Assembly (NCBI RefSeq): GCF_000695095.2
Contig: NZ_CP011454.1
Coordinates: forward strand, 1,240,001 to 1,304,000
DNA: 64,000 nucleotides
Source of the DNA: Gemmatimonas phototrophica
GTDB lineage: Bacteria > Gemmatimonadota > Gemmatimonadetes > Gemmatimonadales > Gemmatimonadaceae
Direction: 5' to 3'
The notes below the pieces were generated by a model. That model had not been told where the DNA came from. It did no database searches and saw only the letters and a program-made list of their open reading frames with translations. Both the position numbers and the translations under genes were made by a program. Positions 26,008-32,613 of this stretch are shown here, one piece after another (the first letter of the stretch is position 1; every line of letters starts with the position of its first letter).

Positions 26008-27636
26008 TCAGTGGGTGAGTGAGGCGTCCCAGTCTACGCGTTCGAGGTTCCCTGAGAGTTGCTGGATGTCTGGTGACAACGGGCGATCCTGATACAGATA
26101 CTCGTGCTGCTCGCGAATCCACCGTACGACGGCCCGACTACCGGGCGAAAAGCCGGCCAGTACGGTGCCGCCGCGTTGTTCCGCTGCCTGCGCAAGCGCC
26201 AGCGCATGAATGGCCAGGACATGAAATACCAGATCGAGCGAGTCGGCCGTCTTGCGCGCGGCAATGGTACCCATCGTCACGACATCCTGATTGTTGGCAT
26301 TCGTGGGCACCGACTGAATGGAGGCTGGTACCGCCCGCGTCCGTAGCTCAGCGACCAGTGCGCTGGCCGTCACCTGGGCCCCCATGAACCCCGAGTTCAC
26401 CCCGTCCGGTCCACCGTGCAGAAAGGCCGGCAGGCCGTGATTCTGGGTGCGGTCGGTGAGTCGCGCAATACAACGCTCGGCATGAATAGCCAGCTTCACG
26501 ACGGCCATCTGCAATGCGTCCGACGCGAAGGCCACGTGCTGCCCGTAAAAATTGCCACCGTGCAGAATCGCGTCATCGTCCGCAAACACCAGCGGGTTAT
26601 CGGTTGCACTATGCAGCTCCACCGTAACGGTCTCATCGTGGAAGCGCATGACGTCGAGCACCGCCCCAATGACCTGCGGTACACAGCGAATGGTGTACGG
26701 ATCCTGCGGACACTCCCCTTCGGGAAGCCACCCTTCCACGGCCTGTGATTCGTCGAGACGCGGCGGGGGCTGGACATGGGGAACGAGTCGGTCGCTGCCG
26801 GCAGTCCAACGCTGGAGCGCGGCATGGGCCGTCTTCTGCCCGGGATGAGGGCGTGCGTCGGCGAATCGTGCATCCCATGCTTCCAGGCGACCGCCCAGGC
26901 ATTCGGCGTACAGGACGCTGAGGCGCAGGGCAAGATGGGCGGCCCGTCGGGCCCGTTCGGCATTCACGGCGGCAATGCCGGTCATGCAGGAGGTGCCGTT
27001 GACCAAGGCAATGCCCTCTTTATGCCCGAGCGTTATGGGGGCCAGCCCTGCGGCCTGCAAGGCGGCGCTCGCCGGCAGTCGCGTTCCGTCGTACCACATT
27101 TCACCCTCACCCATCAGGGTGAGCGCCACGTGGGCCAATGGGGTGAGGTCACCGCTTGCACCCACCGTGCCCATCTCGGGGACTACGGGGACGAGCCCGA
27201 GATTGAGGCACTCGAGCAGACGATCGAAGAGCGGCGCGCTCACGCCCGAGTATCCACGTGCAAGGCTTGAGGCACGCGCAGCCATCATGGCGCGCGTGTG
27301 TACCGGCGACAGGGGTTTCCCCACCCCGCTGCACAGGTGATACACCAGATTGCGCTGCAGCAGGTGAGCATGCTCAGGCGTGACGGGATGCGACGCCAGC
27401 GGGCCGTACCCCGTGGTGACGCCATAAATGCGTCGGCGCTCTTCAACCATGCGGGTGAGCGTGGCGTGCGACGCGGCCATCCGCGCGCGTGCGTCCTCTC
27501 CAATGTGAACCGGGCATGCGCCCGTGGCTACGGCGTGGATGTCCCGGGTGGTGAGCGTGCCGCCGAGGTCCACAGACGACGCCAGGCAGGGCATTGTCGC
27601 GATAACCTCTTCCGGTAGGACTGCTGTTGCCATCAT
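26008..27636 (-). CDS. tal: tyrosine ammonia-lyase for PYP chromophore synthesis (easily misnamed HutH)
   Basis: MIO-dependent aromatic amino acid ammonia-lyase, 542 residues. The prosthetic group forms from Ala160-Ser161-Gly162 in GTVGASGDLTPLAH. Tyr71 (IYGVTTGYG) is the catalytic loop Tyr. The residues that set substrate choice, after NLV, are His100-Leu101 (NLVYHLCSGVG): His-Leu is the tyrosine-specific pair of Rhodobacter TAL, while HutH has Ser-His and plant PAL has Phe-Leu. Other blocks (LRPHPGQK-like ARPHPGQK, LHGGNFYGQHVA, NSGFMGAQVTA, TNANNQDVV) also follow the Rhodobacter enzyme. The product p-coumarate is the PYP chromophore, and a PYP gene lies 4 kb away. ATG 27636 follows AGGA; ATG 27633 is an alternative. 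Confidence 0.9.
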   Translation of the reverse strand: MMATAVLPEEVIATMPCLASSVDLGGTLTTRDIHAVATGACPVHIGEDARARMAASHATLTRMVEERRRIYGVTTGYGPLASHPVTPEHAHLLQRNLVYHLCSGVGKPLSPVHTRAMMAARASSLARGYSGVSAPLFDRLLECLNLGLVPVVPEMGTVGASGDLTPLAHVALTLMGEGEMWYDGTRLPASAALQAAGLAPITLGHKEGIALVNGTSCMTGIAAVNAERARRAAHLALRLSVLYAECLGGRLEAWDARFADARPHPGQKTAHAALQRWTAGSDRLVPHVQPPPRLDESQAVEGWLPEGECPQDPYTIRCVPQVIGAVLDVMRFHDETVTVELHSATDNPLVFADDDAILHGGNFYGQHVAFASDALQMAVVKLAIHAERCIARLTDRTQNHGLPAFLHGGPDGVNSGFMGAQVTASALVAELRTRAVPASIQSVPTNANNQDVVTMGTIAARKTADSLDLVFHVLAIHALALAQAAEQRGGTVLAGFSPGSRAVVRWIREQHEYLYQDRPLSPDIQQLSGNLERVDWDASLTH

Positions 27637-28468
27637 GATTCCTGTCGACATGTCCAACTCGCCTTCCCAAGAGCCAACGCACTCCGGCATCGGAATGGGG
27701 CCCGCGACCGCCCTGTGGCGCGATCGTTTGCATCGGTGTCTTGCCTCGAACGCCACACCGGTGGTGCTGTTCCCCGACGCGGTGCGCAGTGCGGCGTCTC
27801 TTTGGGCCGGGATGCGCACCTGGACGCACCACCTGCGAAACGCCGGTATTCTGGCTGGCGACGTGGTGGTGTGTGCGCTGCCGTCAGGGGACGGGCTGCT
27901 GCAGTTGTTGCTGGCCTGCTTGTGGGATGGAATTTCCGTGGAGATCCATTCGCCCGACTGCGAGCTCAGTGCTTTGCTCGGGCGCGTTGAACGGGTCGAC
28001 GGCACGGTGCTGGTGGTGTCGTTGCTTCCGGAGATGGCGCCGCCGTGGATGCATGCTCCGGCGAATGGCGGATGGCCCAACGAGTCCCGCAGCCTCACCA
28101 GCCGTTGCTCCCACCCTCGCCAGCCCGATCGCCTCGAGGAGCCGGTCGTGCGTCTGCGCGATAAGCGCGGGCTGACGCACGCGGAGTTGCTCCATGCTGT
28201 CATGGAGCAGTGTCGCGATGCATCGTTGCAGGGACGCTGTGTCCTGAGCCTCGTTGACTGGCACCATGAGTCGGGATTGGTTGGTGGTGTGTTGGCCCCC
28301 TTGCTTTGCGCCGAGGAACTGTTCGTGCTGAGCGCGCACGACATCACCGCCATCGAACGCGTGCTGGGCCACGAGCCAGTGAGCCATGTCCTCGTGGGAT
28401 CCGTGGACGAGCAGCGATTTCGCCAGGTTCTCACCCTCCCGTCCCACGTGACGCTGCGGCTCTGTTGA
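27635..28468 (+). CDS. pcl: shortened AMP-dependent ligase-like protein, candidate p-coumarate:CoA ligase
   Basis: A 277-residue relative of the N-terminal half of acyl-CoA synthetases. DVVVCALPSGDGLLQLLLACLWDG (77-100), THAELLHAV (181-189) and LSLVDWHHESGLVGGVLAPLL (205-224) match family blocks. The ATP-binding TSGTTGxPK loop, expected around residue 172-180, is replaced by VRLRDKRG, and nothing equivalent to the C-terminal A5-A10 motifs follows. No frameshifted remainder was found in other frames. PYP loci carry a pCL ligase that activates p-coumarate, and this gene is divergent from tal, so it is the positional candidate; activity is doubtful from sequence. Alternative starts are ATG 27650 and ATG 27695. 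The first two overlap or abut the tal start. Confidence 0.62.
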   Translation: MIPVDMSNSPSQEPTHSGIGMGPATALWRDRLHRCLASNATPVVLFPDAVRSAASLWAGMRTWTHHLRNAGILAGDVVVCALPSGDGLLQLLLACLWDGISVEIHSPDCELSALLGRVERVDGTVLVVSLLPEMAPPWMHAPANGGWPNESRSLTSRCSHPRQPDRLEEPVVRLRDKRGLTHAELLHAVMEQCRDASLQGRCVLSLVDWHHESGLVGGVLAPLLCAEELFVLSAHDITAIERVLGHEPVSHVLVGSVDEQRFRQVLTLPSHVTLRLC

Positions 28469-28509
28469 CGAGAAGTGGCTGGAGACGTTCCGGCGTGACG
28501 GTACGGATG

Positions 28510-29985
28510 TCATGCGGCCGCCAACATGAGCGTCCATCGCTGGGTGTCGGTATCCCGCTCCAACAGTCGGTCGAAATCAACGATCCCGACGATCCGCTGG
28601 TCGGCCTGAACAAATCCCCGCAGCGGGGCCTGTTCGAGCATGGCAGGCATCGATTTGAGACTGCCGCGGCAGACGCCTTCGACTCCGCGTACTCGCAGCG
28701 CAAGGGCGTCTCCTTCGTCCCCATCCGGACGGACATGGACATACGTGGCCTCATCCGCACTGATGGGCGCTTGGAACATGCTGTCGCCCAGATCGATGAG
28801 TTGCACTGTACCGCCATCCTGGCGGCTGATCAGACGACTGCCCTGTACGGCAACCGCAGACGCATCCCGGCGTTCAATGTGTCCCACCATGCGCATGGGG
28901 ATACCTACCACGGCGTCCCGGTCGGATGCGCCCACGCGCAACATGAGGTACTCCGTGACACTGGCCACATCGCACCGGAAGATCATTGTGCTGCCTGTGC
29001 CCGCATTCTGTGAGAGACTCAGCTTCAAGTCCCGAATGGGCCAGGCGCGCCACTGGGGATGGTAGTCCACGGTCCCGTCGGCATCATCACTGAGCATAAG
29101 TTCGACCCGGTCTCCCGTGCGTTTCAATGACACGCGCAACGTGACATGGGCGGGCAGCCCTGCTTCCATACGCTCCTGCGCGGTGCGATGGAGCGATGAT
29201 GCGGCAATCGCACTCATCCATTCGGCGCTGGCCTTGAGGAGGGCGTTCGCAACGGCACTGGGGATGGTGAGGTTGTAGTCCGGGCTTTCTTGCGACAACG
29301 CCACGCGAACGGGTGCCTGTCCCAGTTGCCGAATCAGCACGCCCTCGAACGCGTGGGCAAAGTCGACCACCGACACCCGTAGTGCGCCGCCGACTTTCTC
29401 GATGACGGCACTGATCGCCTTGCTCATTTCCTGACGAACCGGCTGCGAATCGGTGTGCCGGGCAATCTGATCCTGGGCCACCAGCAACGACTCCACGGCA
29501 TCACGGCCACCGGCACTGGCAGAAGCCATAAGCGAGAACAGACGGTCCGTCCGCTCAATGGCACCACGCGCCGCTCCTGCAGGATCGGCCGCGATCTTCT
29601 GCACGAGAAAGGCGGATTCGGCATCGAGGTGAAGTTCGACCGCTTCCAGCAGATACGACAGGGCAGCACCACGCGCCATCAAAGCCGGGTTCGCCGTTCC
29701 CAGCAGAATGGTCTGGTACTGCATCTGCAGGTTATAGCGCATCCATTCGAATCGCAGTTCGAGCCAGATCCACGGCAGCATGTTGTGCGCTTCCGAGGTA
29801 TCGTCGTCGAAGCACACGTCACGCAGCGACTCGGCAATGCCATGCAGGCGCGCGTCCGTATGCTCCACGATCGCTTCGGCGTCGGTATCACTGACGCCGC
29901 CCAGTTCCTCGATCATGAGCCGAATGCGATCACGTACATCGGCACTGTCAAGGAGTGCGAGCAATGCAGGGAGACGGTCTGTCAT
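28510..29985 (-). CDS. CheA-like signalling protein with degenerate ATPase and CheW-type domains
   Basis: A 491-residue soluble protein, last gene of the PYP operon. Residues 1-125 are helical and contain WLELRFEW (74-81), shared exactly with the protein at 31075-31530. Residues 200-345 look like a histidine-kinase ATPase: the G2-like end GTGSTMIFR is recognisable, but the N-box Asn is missing (ALLKASAEWM) and the G1 box is SDDADGTVD. Residues 343-478 resemble a CheW/CheA regulatory domain (GIPMRMVGHIERR ... VDFDRLL). No phosphorylatable Hpt His motif was recognised. It probably works as a scaffold or sensor protein rather than an active kinase. AAGGAG overlaps the HDOD gene end, 7 bases before ATG. 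Confidence 0.75.
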   Translation of the reverse strand: MTDRLPALLALLDSADVRDRIRLMIEELGGVSDTDAEAIVEHTDARLHGIAESLRDVCFDDDTSEAHNMLPWIWLELRFEWMRYNLQMQYQTILLGTANPALMARGAALSYLLEAVELHLDAESAFLVQKIAADPAGAARGAIERTDRLFSLMASASAGGRDAVESLLVAQDQIARHTDSQPVRQEMSKAISAVIEKVGGALRVSVVDFAHAFEGVLIRQLGQAPVRVALSQESPDYNLTIPSAVANALLKASAEWMSAIAASSLHRTAQERMEAGLPAHVTLRVSLKRTGDRVELMLSDDADGTVDYHPQWRAWPIRDLKLSLSQNAGTGSTMIFRCDVASVTEYLMLRVGASDRDAVVGIPMRMVGHIERRDASAVAVQGSRLISRQDGGTVQLIDLGDSMFQAPISADEATYVHVRPDGDEGDALALRVRGVEGVCRGSLKSMPAMLEQAPLRGFVQADQRIVGIVDFDRLLERDTDTQRWTLMLAAA

Positions 29986-29995
29986 ATAGGGCTCC

Positions 29996-31069
29996 TTACG
30001 CCGCGTGCTGGAACTGCTGCAACGCTGTGGCCACGCGGGCCGGTGAGCCGGTCAGCCGACCCAACTGCCAGAGGGCATCAAGATCCAATGGAGATGACCG
30101 GCGCATGGCGTGGTCAGCCCGTTCCGCCAGGAACAGCACCTCCGACAAGGAATCACGTTGCGTGGCGTGCATCATCCGATGGTGTGTCCCAATGGCATTC
30201 GCGGCGCGCTCACCCATCCCCCATCGTTCAGCGGCCAGCGCACCGATCGGCTCGTGCAACTCTTGCAGCAACAGATGTGCGAAGCTGGCATCGAGGGTAA
30301 TGGGGCGGCGCCGCGATGCCCGCAGTACAGAAATTCGATCGAAAATCACCAGTTTCCCGATGTCGTGGAGCAGGGCGATGGCGAAGGCTTCATCCGCCTC
30401 GGCGGCAAATGCCGGTGCCATGGCGCGGGCCAGCGGTGCGGTACGCACCATGTGCGCCCACACGTCAGCAGCCATGGCATTGAATTCGCCACCGGGATGA
30501 CTGAGCAGCCCGTCGACGCAGCTGGCGAGTACGACGGCGCGGGTGCCACTCACACCAATCCGGTCGAGGGCCTGATCAATCCCGAGTACCGCGGCGCGGC
30601 CGGCCGAAAAGGCGGCCGAATTTGCAGTGCGGAGGAGCCCCTGCACGAGGGCGGGATCGTTCCCCAGTTTTGCGCCCAATTGGGAGCGTGAAAGACTGGC
30701 GTCTTCACAAAAGGCCAGTGCCTGGCGGGCGGCCGTGGGCAGTTGACGGATGACCGCCTCTGGTCCATCGCGCAGCAATTGTACCAGTGCTGCCGCATCG
30801 GGTTGCTGTGCCGCCACCGGATGTGCCTTGAGCAGATCGTCCACCTGGTCGAGCCGATTCCCCCAGCGCTGCGTCCAGTCGATACGTTCGGCCGCTATCG
30901 CTGGTGTGGCCATCGCCGTGGCGGCCGCGACACGTGTGACCGTGACGTCTGAAGTCACTGGCGTGGGCGCGCTCTGGTCCTCGCCGACTTCAGCACCGCT
31001 GCGCGGACGTACGGGGGCCGACTGGGGTGCTGTCCGGCGGCGCAAGAGACGGCGAAACCAGGAGATCAT
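29996..31069 (-). CDS. HDOD-domain signalling protein
   Basis: A 357-residue protein. A basic N terminus (MISWFRRLLRRR) and an Ala/Pro/Thr-rich linker lead into an HDOD domain at about 108-300. Unlike many HDOD proteins it keeps HD-type residues: LLHDIGK (233-239) and THH (295-297), so metal binding or phosphohydrolase activity is conceivable. HDOD proteins take part in chemotaxis, cyclic-di-GMP and development signalling. Five bases separate it from the upstream helical protein and ten from the CheA-like gene, so the three are surely co-transcribed with PYP upstream. Confidence 0.85.
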   Translation of the reverse strand: MISWFRRLLRRRTAPQSAPVRPRSGAEVGEDQSAPTPVTSDVTVTRVAAATAMATPAIAAERIDWTQRWGNRLDQVDDLLKAHPVAAQQPDAAALVQLLRDGPEAVIRQLPTAARQALAFCEDASLSRSQLGAKLGNDPALVQGLLRTANSAAFSAGRAAVLGIDQALDRIGVSGTRAVVLASCVDGLLSHPGGEFNAMAADVWAHMVRTAPLARAMAPAFAAEADEAFAIALLHDIGKLVIFDRISVLRASRRRPITLDASFAHLLLQELHEPIGALAAERWGMGERAANAIGTHHRMMHATQRDSLSEVLFLAERADHAMRRSSPLDLDALWQLGRLTGSPARVATALQQFQHAA

Positions 31070-31074
31070 GGTGG

Positions 31075-31530
31075 CTAGTCCGCGGAAGAGACGCGAGCGT
31101 GCTCGACATCGGTGCGCAGGGCGTCGAGCATGTCGACTGCTGAGTCGCCGAGGCGCTCACGGTGTTCCTGGGCCAGCAGGGCCTCGATTCGATCGAGGAC
31201 GTAGGACGCCACAGAGGCGCGCACCATGATGAGCGGAGCGCAGGTACCCGTGCGCATGGTATCGTAGTTGGCCACGAGATTGTGGCGCTGCCATTCAAAG
31301 CGCAGCTCCAGCCACAGCGCGGCCAACGACCGATAGAGTTCCGGCTCATCCTCGTCTTCACCCATGGCTTCCGCGAGCGATGTGATATCGTTGCACAAAC
31401 GCATCGCGTCGTCCACGACCTGCGCGCGGACGTCAGCGGGTAACTCGAGGGACTCGGCTATCGCACGGGTGTCGGTGGCAATAACGGCAGCATCGGCAAT
31501 ATGAATCAGCTGTGCAGCAAGTGTTGGCAT
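31075..31530 (-). CDS. small all-helical protein with WLELRFEW domain, PYP operon
   Basis: A 151-residue protein of unknown function, predicted mostly helical. The centre (ALWLELRFEWQRHNL, 71-85) is nearly the same as residues 72-86 of the CheA-like protein encoded two genes downstream, and the flanking helices (IMVRASVASYVLDRIEALL against LMARGAALSYLLEAVELHL) align too. It is therefore a stand-alone copy of that protein's N-terminal domain, plausibly a dimerisation or PYP-binding module; this is inference. The start at 31530 was chosen because the residues encoded further upstream overlap pyp and look unrelated. Confidence 0.7.
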   Translation of the reverse strand: MPTLAAQLIHIADAAVIATDTRAIAESLELPADVRAQVVDDAMRLCNDITSLAEAMGEDEDEPELYRSLAALWLELRFEWQRHNLVANYDTMRTGTCAPLIMVRASVASYVLDRIEALLAQEHRERLGDSAVDMLDALRTDVEHARVSSAD

Positions 31531-31576
31531 GGTACTCACGCGCGAAAAACGATGAACCTGACCATCAGGTAAGGAG

Positions 31577-31608
31577 CCGTGTGCCACCCGACATGGAGTG
31601 ACACACGG
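31577..31608 (-). promoter_or_regulatory. hairpin downstream of pyp
   Basis: CCGTGTG pairs with CACACGG (7 bp) and the stem can be extended by CAC/GTG across one mismatch. It lies in the 91-bp gap between pyp and the helical protein gene. With no T-run, it may stabilise the pyp mRNA end or reduce read-through so PYP is made in excess of its partners. Confidence 0.4.
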
Positions 31609-31621
31609 AGGCAGCAAGTGT

Positions 31622-31996
31622 TCAGGCGGCGCGCAGGCCAACGAGCACCCAGTTCGTTGCCGAGGGCGCATGGCGGAACAGGCGGATCTGCACGTTCGTG
31701 GGCTTCATTTTGTAGGTGAAGGTGTAGTTGAACTCCGAATCGAGTTCACCTTTGGCCACCCCATCCTTGAACTTGCCGAACATGAGCCGGTTGTTGGTGC
31801 ACGGCGCAACCTGCGTGAAGAAGTTGCGCCCTTCGGCGGAGGCCACGGGGACGCCGGCCATTTCCGATTCCCAGCGATTGTAGAGCTTGATCACACCCGC
31901 ATCATCCACCTGCACAATGCCGAAGGGCTGGGCATCGGCGTTGGGGCGATCCACTGAGGGAATCTGGGCAATGAACTGTGAAGGTACGAAGGACAT
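31622..31996 (-). CDS. pyp: photoactive yellow protein (PYP), blue-light photoreceptor
   Basis: A 124-residue PAS-fold photoreceptor that binds p-coumarate by thioester to Cys66 (FFTQVAPCTNN). Compared with Halorhodospira halophila PYP, Tyr39 equals Tyr42, Asn40 equals Asn43, Glu43 equals Glu46, and Tyr91, Phe93, Tyr95 and Met97 equal Tyr94, Phe96, Tyr98 and Met100. So the hydrogen-bond pocket is intact. Thr50 is Ala47 and Arg52 is Val49 here, which may shift colour or photocycle rate. The FGKFKDGVAKGELD and YTFTYKMKPT segments are strongly PYP. GAGGAG lies 7 bases before ATG 31996. It is the second gene of a five-gene minus-strand operon, with tal nearby for the chromophore. Confidence 0.95.
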   Translation of the reverse strand: MSFVPSQFIAQIPSVDRPNADAQPFGIVQVDDAGVIKLYNRWESEMAGVPVASAEGRNFFTQVAPCTNNRLMFGKFKDGVAKGELDSEFNYTFTYKMKPTNVQIRLFRHAPSATNWVLVGLRAA

Positions 31997-32055
31997 GAGA
32001 ACACTCCTCGAATTGAACGACGGTTTGAGTGGAATCGAAGCCGGAGCGGCTGGAC

Positions 32056-32613
32056 TCAGGAGAAGGATTGATCGACGAGCGCGTTGACGAGTTCGCGGGC
32101 GCGACGTTTGGCAGAGCTTACGTCGTGGGCGGCACGGTCAAGCTGTTCTGCGAGGTCGTTCCGCTCTTCAAGGAGGGACGCCACCTGCGCTTCGAGGCTC
32201 TGGACCATCTCGATCGCTTCGAGATGTCCGTATGCGGCGGTTGCCCGCTCGTCATACAACGCGTGCAACTGCTCGGTGAGACTGCCCAGCGTTTCGGAGA
32301 GCGCGGCATGGTCTCCCGCCGGCGCGCTGCTTGCCTCGGGGTGGCCATGTTCACGCGCTTCGTAGAACTCGCCCAATTGGGCGGCGAGGCTTTCCACGCT
32401 GCTGCGGAGCTCCGCAATCGTGCGTGCACTCAGGCGCTGTTTGTCTTCATACAGCGCGGTAAGGGCTTCGTCGGGGGCAGCCTGTTGCCAGGACTGTTCC
32501 TTCTCCTCGTAGAGACTGACGAGTTGGGCTTCCAGATTCCCAAGCATCTCCCGGAGCGCTTCCAGCGACTCCGGAGCGCTCGCTGAGAGCGCGTGTCGAA
32601 TGTCCAGGGCCAA
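32056..32613 (-). CDS. coiled-coil repeat protein, first gene of PYP operon
   Basis: A 185-residue, acidic, Leu/Glu/Ala-rich protein predicted to be one long coiled coil. A motif of the form SLxxQLxxLYEE(K/R) recurs about four times: NLEAQLVSLYEEKE, SLAAQLGEFYEARE, SLTEQLHALYDERA and SLEAQVASLLEERN. No known domain was recognised. The start is TTG at 32613, supported by GAGGTG five bases upstream; no Met occurs before residue 23. A possible -10 (TATACG, about 32668-32673 on the minus strand) lies further up. It could be a PYP partner or scaffold; this is inferred only from operon position. Confidence 0.68.
   Translation of the reverse strand: MALDIRHALSASAPESLEALREMLGNLEAQLVSLYEEKEQSWQQAAPDEALTALYEDKQRLSARTIAELRSSVESLAAQLGEFYEAREHGHPEASSAPAGDHAALSETLGSLTEQLHALYDERATAAYGHLEAIEMVQSLEAQVASLLEERNDLAEQLDRAAHDVSSAKRRARELVNALVDQSFS

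Follow-up and report, generated by a model that had tools for sequence, protein, structure and literature searches.

The photoactive yellow protein (PYP) locus of Gemmatimonas phototrophica is, in our judgement, probably a conserved light-input module of clade-B PYPs, in which a domain of about 130 aa, here called HEL, serves as an adaptor that passes the signal of PYP on to chemosensory complexes of the CheA type. HEL is a strong candidate for the protein that reads the signal of clade-B PYPs, because it is almost confined to genomes with such a PYP and elsewhere is fused to chemotaxis-kinase modules. The evidence consists of observed genes, their homology, co-occurrence, adjacency and fusions, and of an observed loss of ATP-site motifs. 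Few photoreceptors have been studied as much as PYP, yet most single-domain PYPs lack a known downstream partner (PMC12826048; PMC9664959).

Gene organization and genome context

The window is the whole analyzed stretch of 64,000 nucleotides. The compact five-gene PYP operon of the initial annotation was confirmed, with all genes on the minus strand, separated by short gaps, in the order coiled repeat protein, PYP, HEL, HDOD and CheA-like protein. The gaps are 59 bp between the coiled repeat protein and PYP, 5 bp between HEL and HDOD, and 10 bp between HDOD and the CheA-like protein. The HEL start was taken as the ATG at 31530; the start at 31671 in the ORF list would overlap PYP. The features are:

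32056..32613, minus strand: coiled repeat protein, 185 aa, operon gene 1, TTG start assumed
31622..31996, minus strand: PYP, clade B; Cys66/Tyr39/Glu43 correspond to Cys69/Tyr42/Glu46
31075..31530, minus strand: HEL protein (151 aa), an undescribed domain with six helices predicted; candidate receiver of the PYP signal
29996..31069, minus strand: HDOD protein, 357 aa, HD motif kept
28510..29985, minus strand: putative CheA-related pseudokinase; HEL (residues 6-134), P3-like, degenerate P4 (204-341), P5/CheW-like (342-476)
29584..29970, minus strand: second HEL domain, inside the CheA-like protein, in place of CheA P1-P2
26008..27651, minus strand: predicted tyrosine ammonia-lyase (TAL), chromophore synthesis; outside the operon; start 27651 or 27636
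27635 or 27650..28468, plus strand: short AMP-ligase-like ORF, 272-277 aa, C-terminal part missing

The host genome is a single contig of 4.72 Mb. It encodes the L/M subunits of a photosynthetic reaction centre and has, in addition to several CheA/CheW clusters, 14 genes for MCPs. The 64,000-nt window yielded neither a tRNA nor an Rfam RNA, and a search for an anti-phage link returned only trivial HD and coiled-coil matches.

PYP and chromophore supply

The window PYP matches solved PYPs with an E-value of 9e-25. Against TIGR02373 it reaches 106.3 bits (E 1e-30), under the cut-off of 143.05 bits; because this model is reported to match only about 20% of PYP homologues (PMC9664959), the residues and the tree were weighed above the cut-off. 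The chromophore Cys and the pocket Tyr and Glu, already recognized in the initial annotation, are retained as C66, Y39 and E43 (Cys69, Tyr42 and Glu46 in Halorhodospira halophila numbering), and the Cys is invariant across 20 aligned clade-B PYPs. Thr50 is replaced by Ala and Arg52 by Val, again in H. halophila numbering. In the PYP tree the protein branches with the PYP of Sphaerotilus natans (99% SH-aLRT), and it is a member of PYP clade B of Xing et al. This clade, with Leptospiraceae and Salinibacter-type PYPs, unites 60 rows at 89% SH-aLRT in a quick tree built on few columns; it excludes the PYP of H. halophila as well as 37 further PYPs from Gemmatimonadota.

The ammonia-lyase noted near PYP in the initial annotation is present with the aromatic-lyase fold (PF00221, E 3.5e-161) and the MIO Ala-Ser-Gly motif; it does not form part of the five-gene operon. 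Its closest PDB matches, 2o6y/2o78 (E 2e-138), are deposited as putative histidine ammonia-lyase and are known as the Rhodobacter sphaeroides TAL. A His-Leu pair occupies the selectivity position.

A divergent AMP-ligase-like ORF, absent from the initial annotation, lies between the lyase and the operon. It matches TIGR03089 (E 6.5e-8) and, under the cut-off, an AMP-binding model (E 0.023), and a relative of 460 aa aligns with it solely in the N-terminal portion of that relative. The ORF is related to the p-coumarate ligases encoded at other PYP loci and is probably not a complete ligase.

The HEL domain and the CheA-like protein

The window HEL protein, modeled by AlphaFold with a pLDDT of 97.3, is homologous to the N-terminus of the window CheA-like protein. 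The operon thus holds two HELs, since this N-terminus is itself a HEL. Among 38 members scanned, no Pfam family was found for HEL, with one spurious weak match, and a PDB profile search returned only a phage maturation protein at E 0.004, which was judged a chance match. In fold searches the best Foldseek E-value was 0.9 and the best VIA-align Z-score 8.4, a level that unrelated helical bundles also reach. HEL was therefore not assigned to a known family or fold. A relationship to CheA P1/Hpt was likewise rejected at the sequence level, the alignment offering neither sequence support nor a conserved His.

Some HEL proteins consist of the domain alone. In others HEL precedes the P3-P4*-P5 part of a CheA pseudokinase or forms the C-terminal end of a CheA kinase that appears intact, so that the HEL-CheA fusions have two different domain orders. 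HEL proteins of about 700 aa were considered as MCPs; this was ruled out by their Pfam content, Hpt and HATPase. A leptospiral operon has the order MCP-coil-PYP-HEL. No chemosensory gene was recognized beside HEL in Rhodothermales, and the output there may therefore differ.

These architectures bear on a role of HEL in PYP assembly or maturation, such as chromophore attachment or the holding of apo-PYP, in place of signal reception. Such a factor, too, would be expected to occur strictly together with PYP and to be encoded next to PYP, TAL or pCL genes. A chaperone, however, needs neither CheA fusions in two architectures nor an MCP neighbour, and PYP can be reconstituted without helpers, as was done for the H. 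halophila protein. Another PYP domain was photoactive when overexpressed in E. coli (PMC12826048). A maturation role is accordingly regarded as improbable.

The label "CheA/CheW-like" given to the last operon gene by the initial annotation was right as to the CheA P3-P4-P5 fold (3ja6_C, Z 20.7 over 312 residues; CheA profile match, E 2.6e-15); the kinase core, however, appears dead and the N-terminus is the second HEL. No match to Hpt, the P1 phosphoacceptor, was found in this protein, and HEL occupies that position. The N-box Asn, the G2 box and the ATP lid are absent from its P4; the same three elements are missing in 15/15 pseudokinases and present in 8/8 kinase-type relatives near clade-B PYPs. 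Judged by its ATP-site motifs, the window protein would be a pseudokinase.

Distribution of the partner genes

A total of 57 clade-B PYP loci from about ten phyla were compared with 38 control loci of other PYPs. The HEL domain was found at 37 of the clade-B loci and coil repeats, detected with a repeat profile, at 44; each was found at 0/38 control loci. In 731 genomes of four taxon sets, where genomes within one order are not independent, 41 carry HEL, 42 a clade-B PYP and 40 both. HEL and clade-B PYP occur in the same three of 395 Gemmatimonadota genomes and in the same five of 192 Bdellovibrionota genomes. The 30 Leptospirales genomes include 11 with HEL and 13 with clade-B PYP (11 with both; the two in which HEL was not found are fragmentary contigs), and the 114 Rhodothermales genomes include 22 and 21, respectively (21 with both). 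A lone HEL without PYP was seen in one genome of the 731 (G660). HEL was also present in 18 of 20 further clade-B PYP genomes and was not found in the other two (G403, G408); in 3 of the 18 it lies on a different contig, with no PYP beside it.

The initial annotation named partners without PYP, or PYPs without partners, as observations that would speak against its proposal. HEL is nearly free of such cases (40/41 and 40/42), whereas the five-gene set as a whole does not hold together, because most clade-B PYPs are without HDOD and Gemmatimonadota PYPs from other lineages have none of the partners within about 8 kb. Nor is the operon peculiar to Gemmatimonadota, since the same five-gene order occurs in Sphaerotilus natans and in another pseudomonadotal MAG.

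Co-transfer of a cassette can yield co-occurrence without direct contact. The operon might thus be a travelling cassette of genes functionally unrelated to PYP signaling, and the PYP tree, with the window beside Sphaerotilus, does indicate transfer between phyla. Gene order, however, varies greatly among clade-B loci, both HEL and PYP are retained in some genomes in which they are unlinked, and HEL is rarely seen without PYP. We consider this explanation very improbable. A mobile or plasmid-borne cassette was also rejected: HEL had no plasmid match, and plasmid PYPs were all less than 60% identical.

The window coiled repeat protein contains about four copies of a repeat of approximately 33 aa with the core SLExQLxxLYxERE, and probably serves to scaffold or oligomerize PYP. 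HEL might chiefly partner this protein as a structural scaffold, PYP signaling via the coil and touching HEL only indirectly. The coil repeats are linked to PYP as tightly as HEL is, and in several loci they are fused to PYP or to Cys-less PYP-like domains. Four loci (L099, L116, L123, L124) nevertheless have PYP and HEL with no recognized multi-repeat coil gene, although a single diverged repeat may be missed, and we consider an indirect contact of this kind unlikely.

The HDOD protein (PF08668, E 8.4e-28, 97.6 bits against a cut-off of 22.9) is confined, among clade-B loci, to the small subclade that contains the window PYP (window, L073, L074, L033/L075); a distant HDOD-like gene lies near L076. 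The output might run via HDOD, for example to motility or gene expression, with the CheA-like protein a mere scaffold for it. This would fit the position of HDOD, which in the window, L073 and L074 is flanked by HEL and the pseudokinase, and its good conservation (44% identity to the same-position HDOD of S. natans). Most HEL-containing loci lack HDOD, however, so that it can only be a local output; as the main route it has a low probability. HDOD is proposed to be a lineage-specific addition, either output or modulator. The initial annotation rightly saw a compact operon with specific partners, but its four candidates are not equivalent: HDOD is local, while coil and HEL recur, and their treatment as equals was rejected.

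Proposed signaling route

The core of the module would be PYP, the coiled repeat protein and HEL. Blue light would isomerize the chromophore and PYP would partly unfold to its signaling state, in which its binding to HEL would be altered. HEL would then act on a CheA-type chemosensory complex, a step proposed on the ground that HEL either belongs to a CheA protein or has an MCP gene as its neighbour. From the gene associations we infer the physical contact between PYP and HEL, the direction of the signal and the chemosensory output. In the pseudokinases HEL replaces P1-P2, and the P3 dimerization and P5/CheW parts are kept. The window pseudokinase, presumably unable to phosphorylate, would be a light-controlled subunit in arrays of one of the ordinary host CheA/CheW systems.

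A broader reading takes HEL as a new PYP-receiver domain that all clade-B PYPs, in about ten phyla, use to signal into CheA-family complexes. The connection would be made by active CheAs or CheA pseudokinases that carry a fused HEL, or by HEL together with a sensor-less MCP. Chemosensory arrays would then have a light-input system that is soluble and modular. We hold this to be possible, with the balance slightly against it.

Comparative genomics narrows the signal reader of one whole PYP branch to a 130-residue domain, with the coiled repeat protein as second candidate. If the adaptor reading is true, PYP and HEL are a light-switchable protein pair, the route of clade-B PYP to the chemotaxis machinery is explained, and a class of CheA pseudokinases is defined as light-regulated scaffolds.

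Comparison with known systems

The initial annotation held the gene set to be new for PYP pathways, and it is indeed not described in the PYP surveys PMC12826048 and PMC9664959. Dohmen et al. 2025, covering pyp operons and PYP multidomain proteins, list histidine kinase, MCP, GGDEF/EAL, pCL and TAL as recurrent partners (PMC12826048); HEL, coil, CheW, HDOD and CheA are not mentioned as PYP partners in its main text. The main text of PMC9664959 does not mention the HEL domain, the coil repeats, the CheA pseudokinase or the HEL-CheA fusion.

In the H. halophila pyp-pCL-TAL operon, too, PYP is accompanied by a TAL that serves the p-coumarate chromophore; the window differs in that its TAL lies outside the operon, its ligase-like ORF is truncated and partner genes are present. 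With the CheA histidine kinase (P1-P5) the window protein shares the P3, P4 and P5 folds and their order, but has HEL in place of P1-P2 and a P4 from which the N-box Asn, the G2 box and the ATP lid are missing. A precedent is Ppr of Rhodospirillum (Rhodocista) centenum, a sensor kinase with a fused PYP; it binds CheW and has an effect on chemotaxis (PMC2993699). Unlike the window system, it carries PYP in cis with a phytochrome and a HisKA-type kinase and has no HEL domain. The clade-B PYPs of Leptospira and Salinibacter belong to the same PYP branch as that of the window (PMC9664959). In that survey, Xing, Gumerov and Zhulin 2022 found sensor-less chemoreceptors adjoining Leptospira PYPs and proposed phototaxis; they propose direct PYP-MCP contact, in contrast to the HEL adaptor proposed here.

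Gene content of the locus

As the initial annotation had it, five consecutive ORFs separated by short gaps lie on the minus strand in the order coil, PYP, HEL, HDOD and CheA-like, and a tyrosine ammonia-lyase (TAL) gene is found near PYP.

32056-32613, minus strand, coil, a coiled repeat protein, first ORF of the series
31622-31996, minus strand, photoactive yellow protein (PYP), matching solved PYPs and TIGR02373
31075-31530, minus strand, helical protein (HEL), ORF between PYP and HDOD
29996-31069, minus strand, HDOD protein, with Pfam HDOD and HD matches
28510-29985, minus strand, CheA-like protein, last ORF of the series
about 27635-28468, plus strand, AMP-ligase-like ORF, divergent and truncated
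26008-27651, minus strand, tyrosine ammonia-lyase

The identity of PYP was likewise borne out (E 9e-25 to solved PYPs, E 1e-30 to TIGR02373; Cys69, Tyr42 and Glu46 kept). Short AMP-ligase-like ORFs resembling that of the window also occur at loci L073, L077, L078 and L120, most other loci having full-length ones; the shortened version may serve a role of its own. The host genome consists of one contig of 4.72 Mb and carries reaction-centre L and M genes.

PYP lineage and distribution

PYP-type matches were present in 51 of 395 Gemmatimonadota genomes, only two of which, G281 (82%) and G288 (62%, another family), hold close relatives of the window PYP. Searching about 85,000 species genomes with three sequences recovered 57 loci, including those two (as L075 and L079), from Pseudomonadota, Myxococcota, Planctomycetota, Bdellovibrionota, Spirochaetota, Bacteroidota/Rhodothermota, Ignavibacteriota, Armatimonadota and others. 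The loci were selected with PYP patterns derived from the window subfamily, and locus percentages describe that sample, not all PYPs; many of the genomes are MAGs, and genes at the loci were called with our own ORF heuristics.

In a quick tree of few columns, the PYPs of the 57 loci clustered with Leptospiraceae and Salinibacter-type PYPs (89% SH-aLRT); outside this cluster fell the PYP of H. halophila and the remaining Gemmatimonadota PYPs, among them two more copies from the host. The window PYP and these relatives are assigned to clade B as defined by Xing et al. (PMC9664959). The tree places the window PYP, with 99% support, among those of Sphaerotilus natans (76%), a Pseudomonadota MAG and G281, which implies transfer between phyla.

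Host PYP L035 (C1:3385550-3385885) is ordinary, with Cys69/Tyr42/Glu46 kept and no recognisable signalling neighbour. The third host PYP-type gene, L036 (C1:3781117-3781425), reads CPSAN in place of APCTN, with Ser at the chromophore Cys position and a Cys two residues earlier; its product may be chromophore-less or redox-tuned.

The operon in other genomes

The five-gene operon is not unique to the window: gene order is identical in Sphaerotilus natans (L073) and a Pseudomonadota MAG (L074). All operon genes are present in G281, rearranged and with two HEL genes in tandem; G288 retains just coil, PYP and HEL, in that order, and there the HEL gene overlaps the stop codon of PYP. Loci L076 and L077 combine PYP with both a HEL pseudokinase and an Hpt-HATPase kinase. 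An apparently frame-broken second PYP copy (L162:9980-10474, Pseudobacteriovorax MAG) adjoins CheA, response regulator, ligase, HEL and TAL genes. A HEL gene in a Silvanigrellales MAG (L161:8385-9242) lies within a gas-vesicle cluster (GvpA, GvpL/F) whose contig also carries PYP; this HEL might govern buoyancy or simply sit nearby.

HEL and coil as candidate partners of clade-B PYP

All four neighbours had been proposed as signalling partners. HEL and coil do follow clade-B PYP; HDOD does not, and is a local addition. The HDOD protein matches both Pfam HDOD and HD, and since the HD motif is kept it might, speculatively, be catalytically active.

The first 134 residues of the CheA-like protein are homologous to standalone HEL. 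An iterated profile collected 48 HEL-domain proteins, all at clade-B PYP loci (L075 and L079 duplicating G281 and G288), and none at 38 loci of other PYPs. The HEL profile was also compared with clade-B PYP across whole genomes of four taxon sets, the HEL search covering these and the PYP loci.

Table. Genomes with HEL and clade-B PYP; Fisher p values are approximate and ignore relatedness.
Taxon set; genomes; HEL; clade-B PYP; both; Fisher p
Gemmatimonadota; 395; 3; 3; 3; ~1e-7
Bdellovibrionota; 192; 5; 5; 5; 5e-10
Leptospirales; 30; 11; 13; 11; 1e-6
Rhodothermales; 114; 22; 21; 21; 5e-22
Pooled; 731; 41; 42; 40

The pooled counts uphold the expected association for HEL, and presence of the pair is sporadic within Gemmatimonadota and Bdellovibrionota. 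The sole HEL-positive genome of the four sets lacking a clade-B PYP match carries HEL at G660:C312:8941-9342. HEL was found in 18 of 20 clade-B PYP genomes picked from the loci, on another contig than PYP with no PYP adjoining in three (G398, G399, G413) and about 10-12 kb from PYP on the same contig in two (G401, G406). On leptospiral contig L087, HEL follows PYP and is cut by the contig end, the remainder lying on L165.

The window HEL model (pLDDT 97.3) has six helices. HEL matched no Pfam family, and its Foldseek and VIA-align matches did not exceed what generic helical bundles give. Its signature is ELkxxWxxxNxxxqYqt, with W80, N84 and E116 nearly invariant.

Coil is made up of arrayed repeats, each ~33 aa long, with the core SLExQLxxLYxERE. 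By repeat profile, at locus level only, repeats lie within 6 kb of PYP at 44 of 57 clade-B loci and at 0 of 38 control PYP loci. Most clade-B loci outside the 44 have a single repeat, at the PYP N-terminus (L100, L101, L103, L105, L111, L115) or in an adjoining short gene (L129). Rhodothermales have long arrays joined to a PYP-like domain that lacks the chromophore Cys (APSTNNN). Some lineages thus have coil repeats in physical linkage with PYP. Six such fusions (L109, L117, L121, L125, L127, L128; roughly 550-1200 aa, up to ~13 repeats) have the PYP-like domain, with Cys69 replaced, at the C-terminus and lie directly upstream of a normal PYP.

CheA-like protein and proposed signalling route

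HEL occurs standalone, N-terminally in ~480-aa CheA-like proteins (n=15) and C-terminally in ~700-aa proteins (n=6), which have Hpt and HATPase domains in those scanned and keep the ATP-site motifs in all 6. The model of the window CheA-like protein (pLDDT 83.5) matches CheA P3-P4-P5 (Z 20.7), and its family profile matches CheA P4-P5 (E 2.6e-15). The N-box Asn, G2 box and ATP lid are absent in 15/15 family members and kept in 8/8 kinase-type relatives from the same loci; on these motifs the protein is a predicted pseudokinase. CheA/CheW genes occur at three or more sites in the host genome, alongside a total of 14 MCP genes; a pseudokinase subunit could plug into these systems.

PYP, with coil, would signal through HEL to a CheA-type complex; we infer direction, contact and output. 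A chemosensory output is suggested because HEL-CheA fusions occur in two orders, because a leptospiral MCP-coil-PYP-HEL operon exists, and because the PYP fusion kinase Ppr is reported to bind CheW (PMC2993699).

Comparison with known systems

The gene set had been thought undescribed for PYP, and HEL-like proteins, coil repeats, CheW and HDOD are indeed absent from the main texts of both surveys (PMC9664959, PMC12826048). PYP together with HDOD was not found in the openly accessible literature searched. In their main texts, Xing et al. describe chemoreceptors without a sensor adjoining Leptospira PYPs (PMC9664959), and Dohmen 2025 gives histidine kinases, MCP, GGDEF/EAL, pCL and TAL as PYP partners (PMC12826048). 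CheA itself has P1-P2 at the positions where the putative window-type pseudokinase has HEL.
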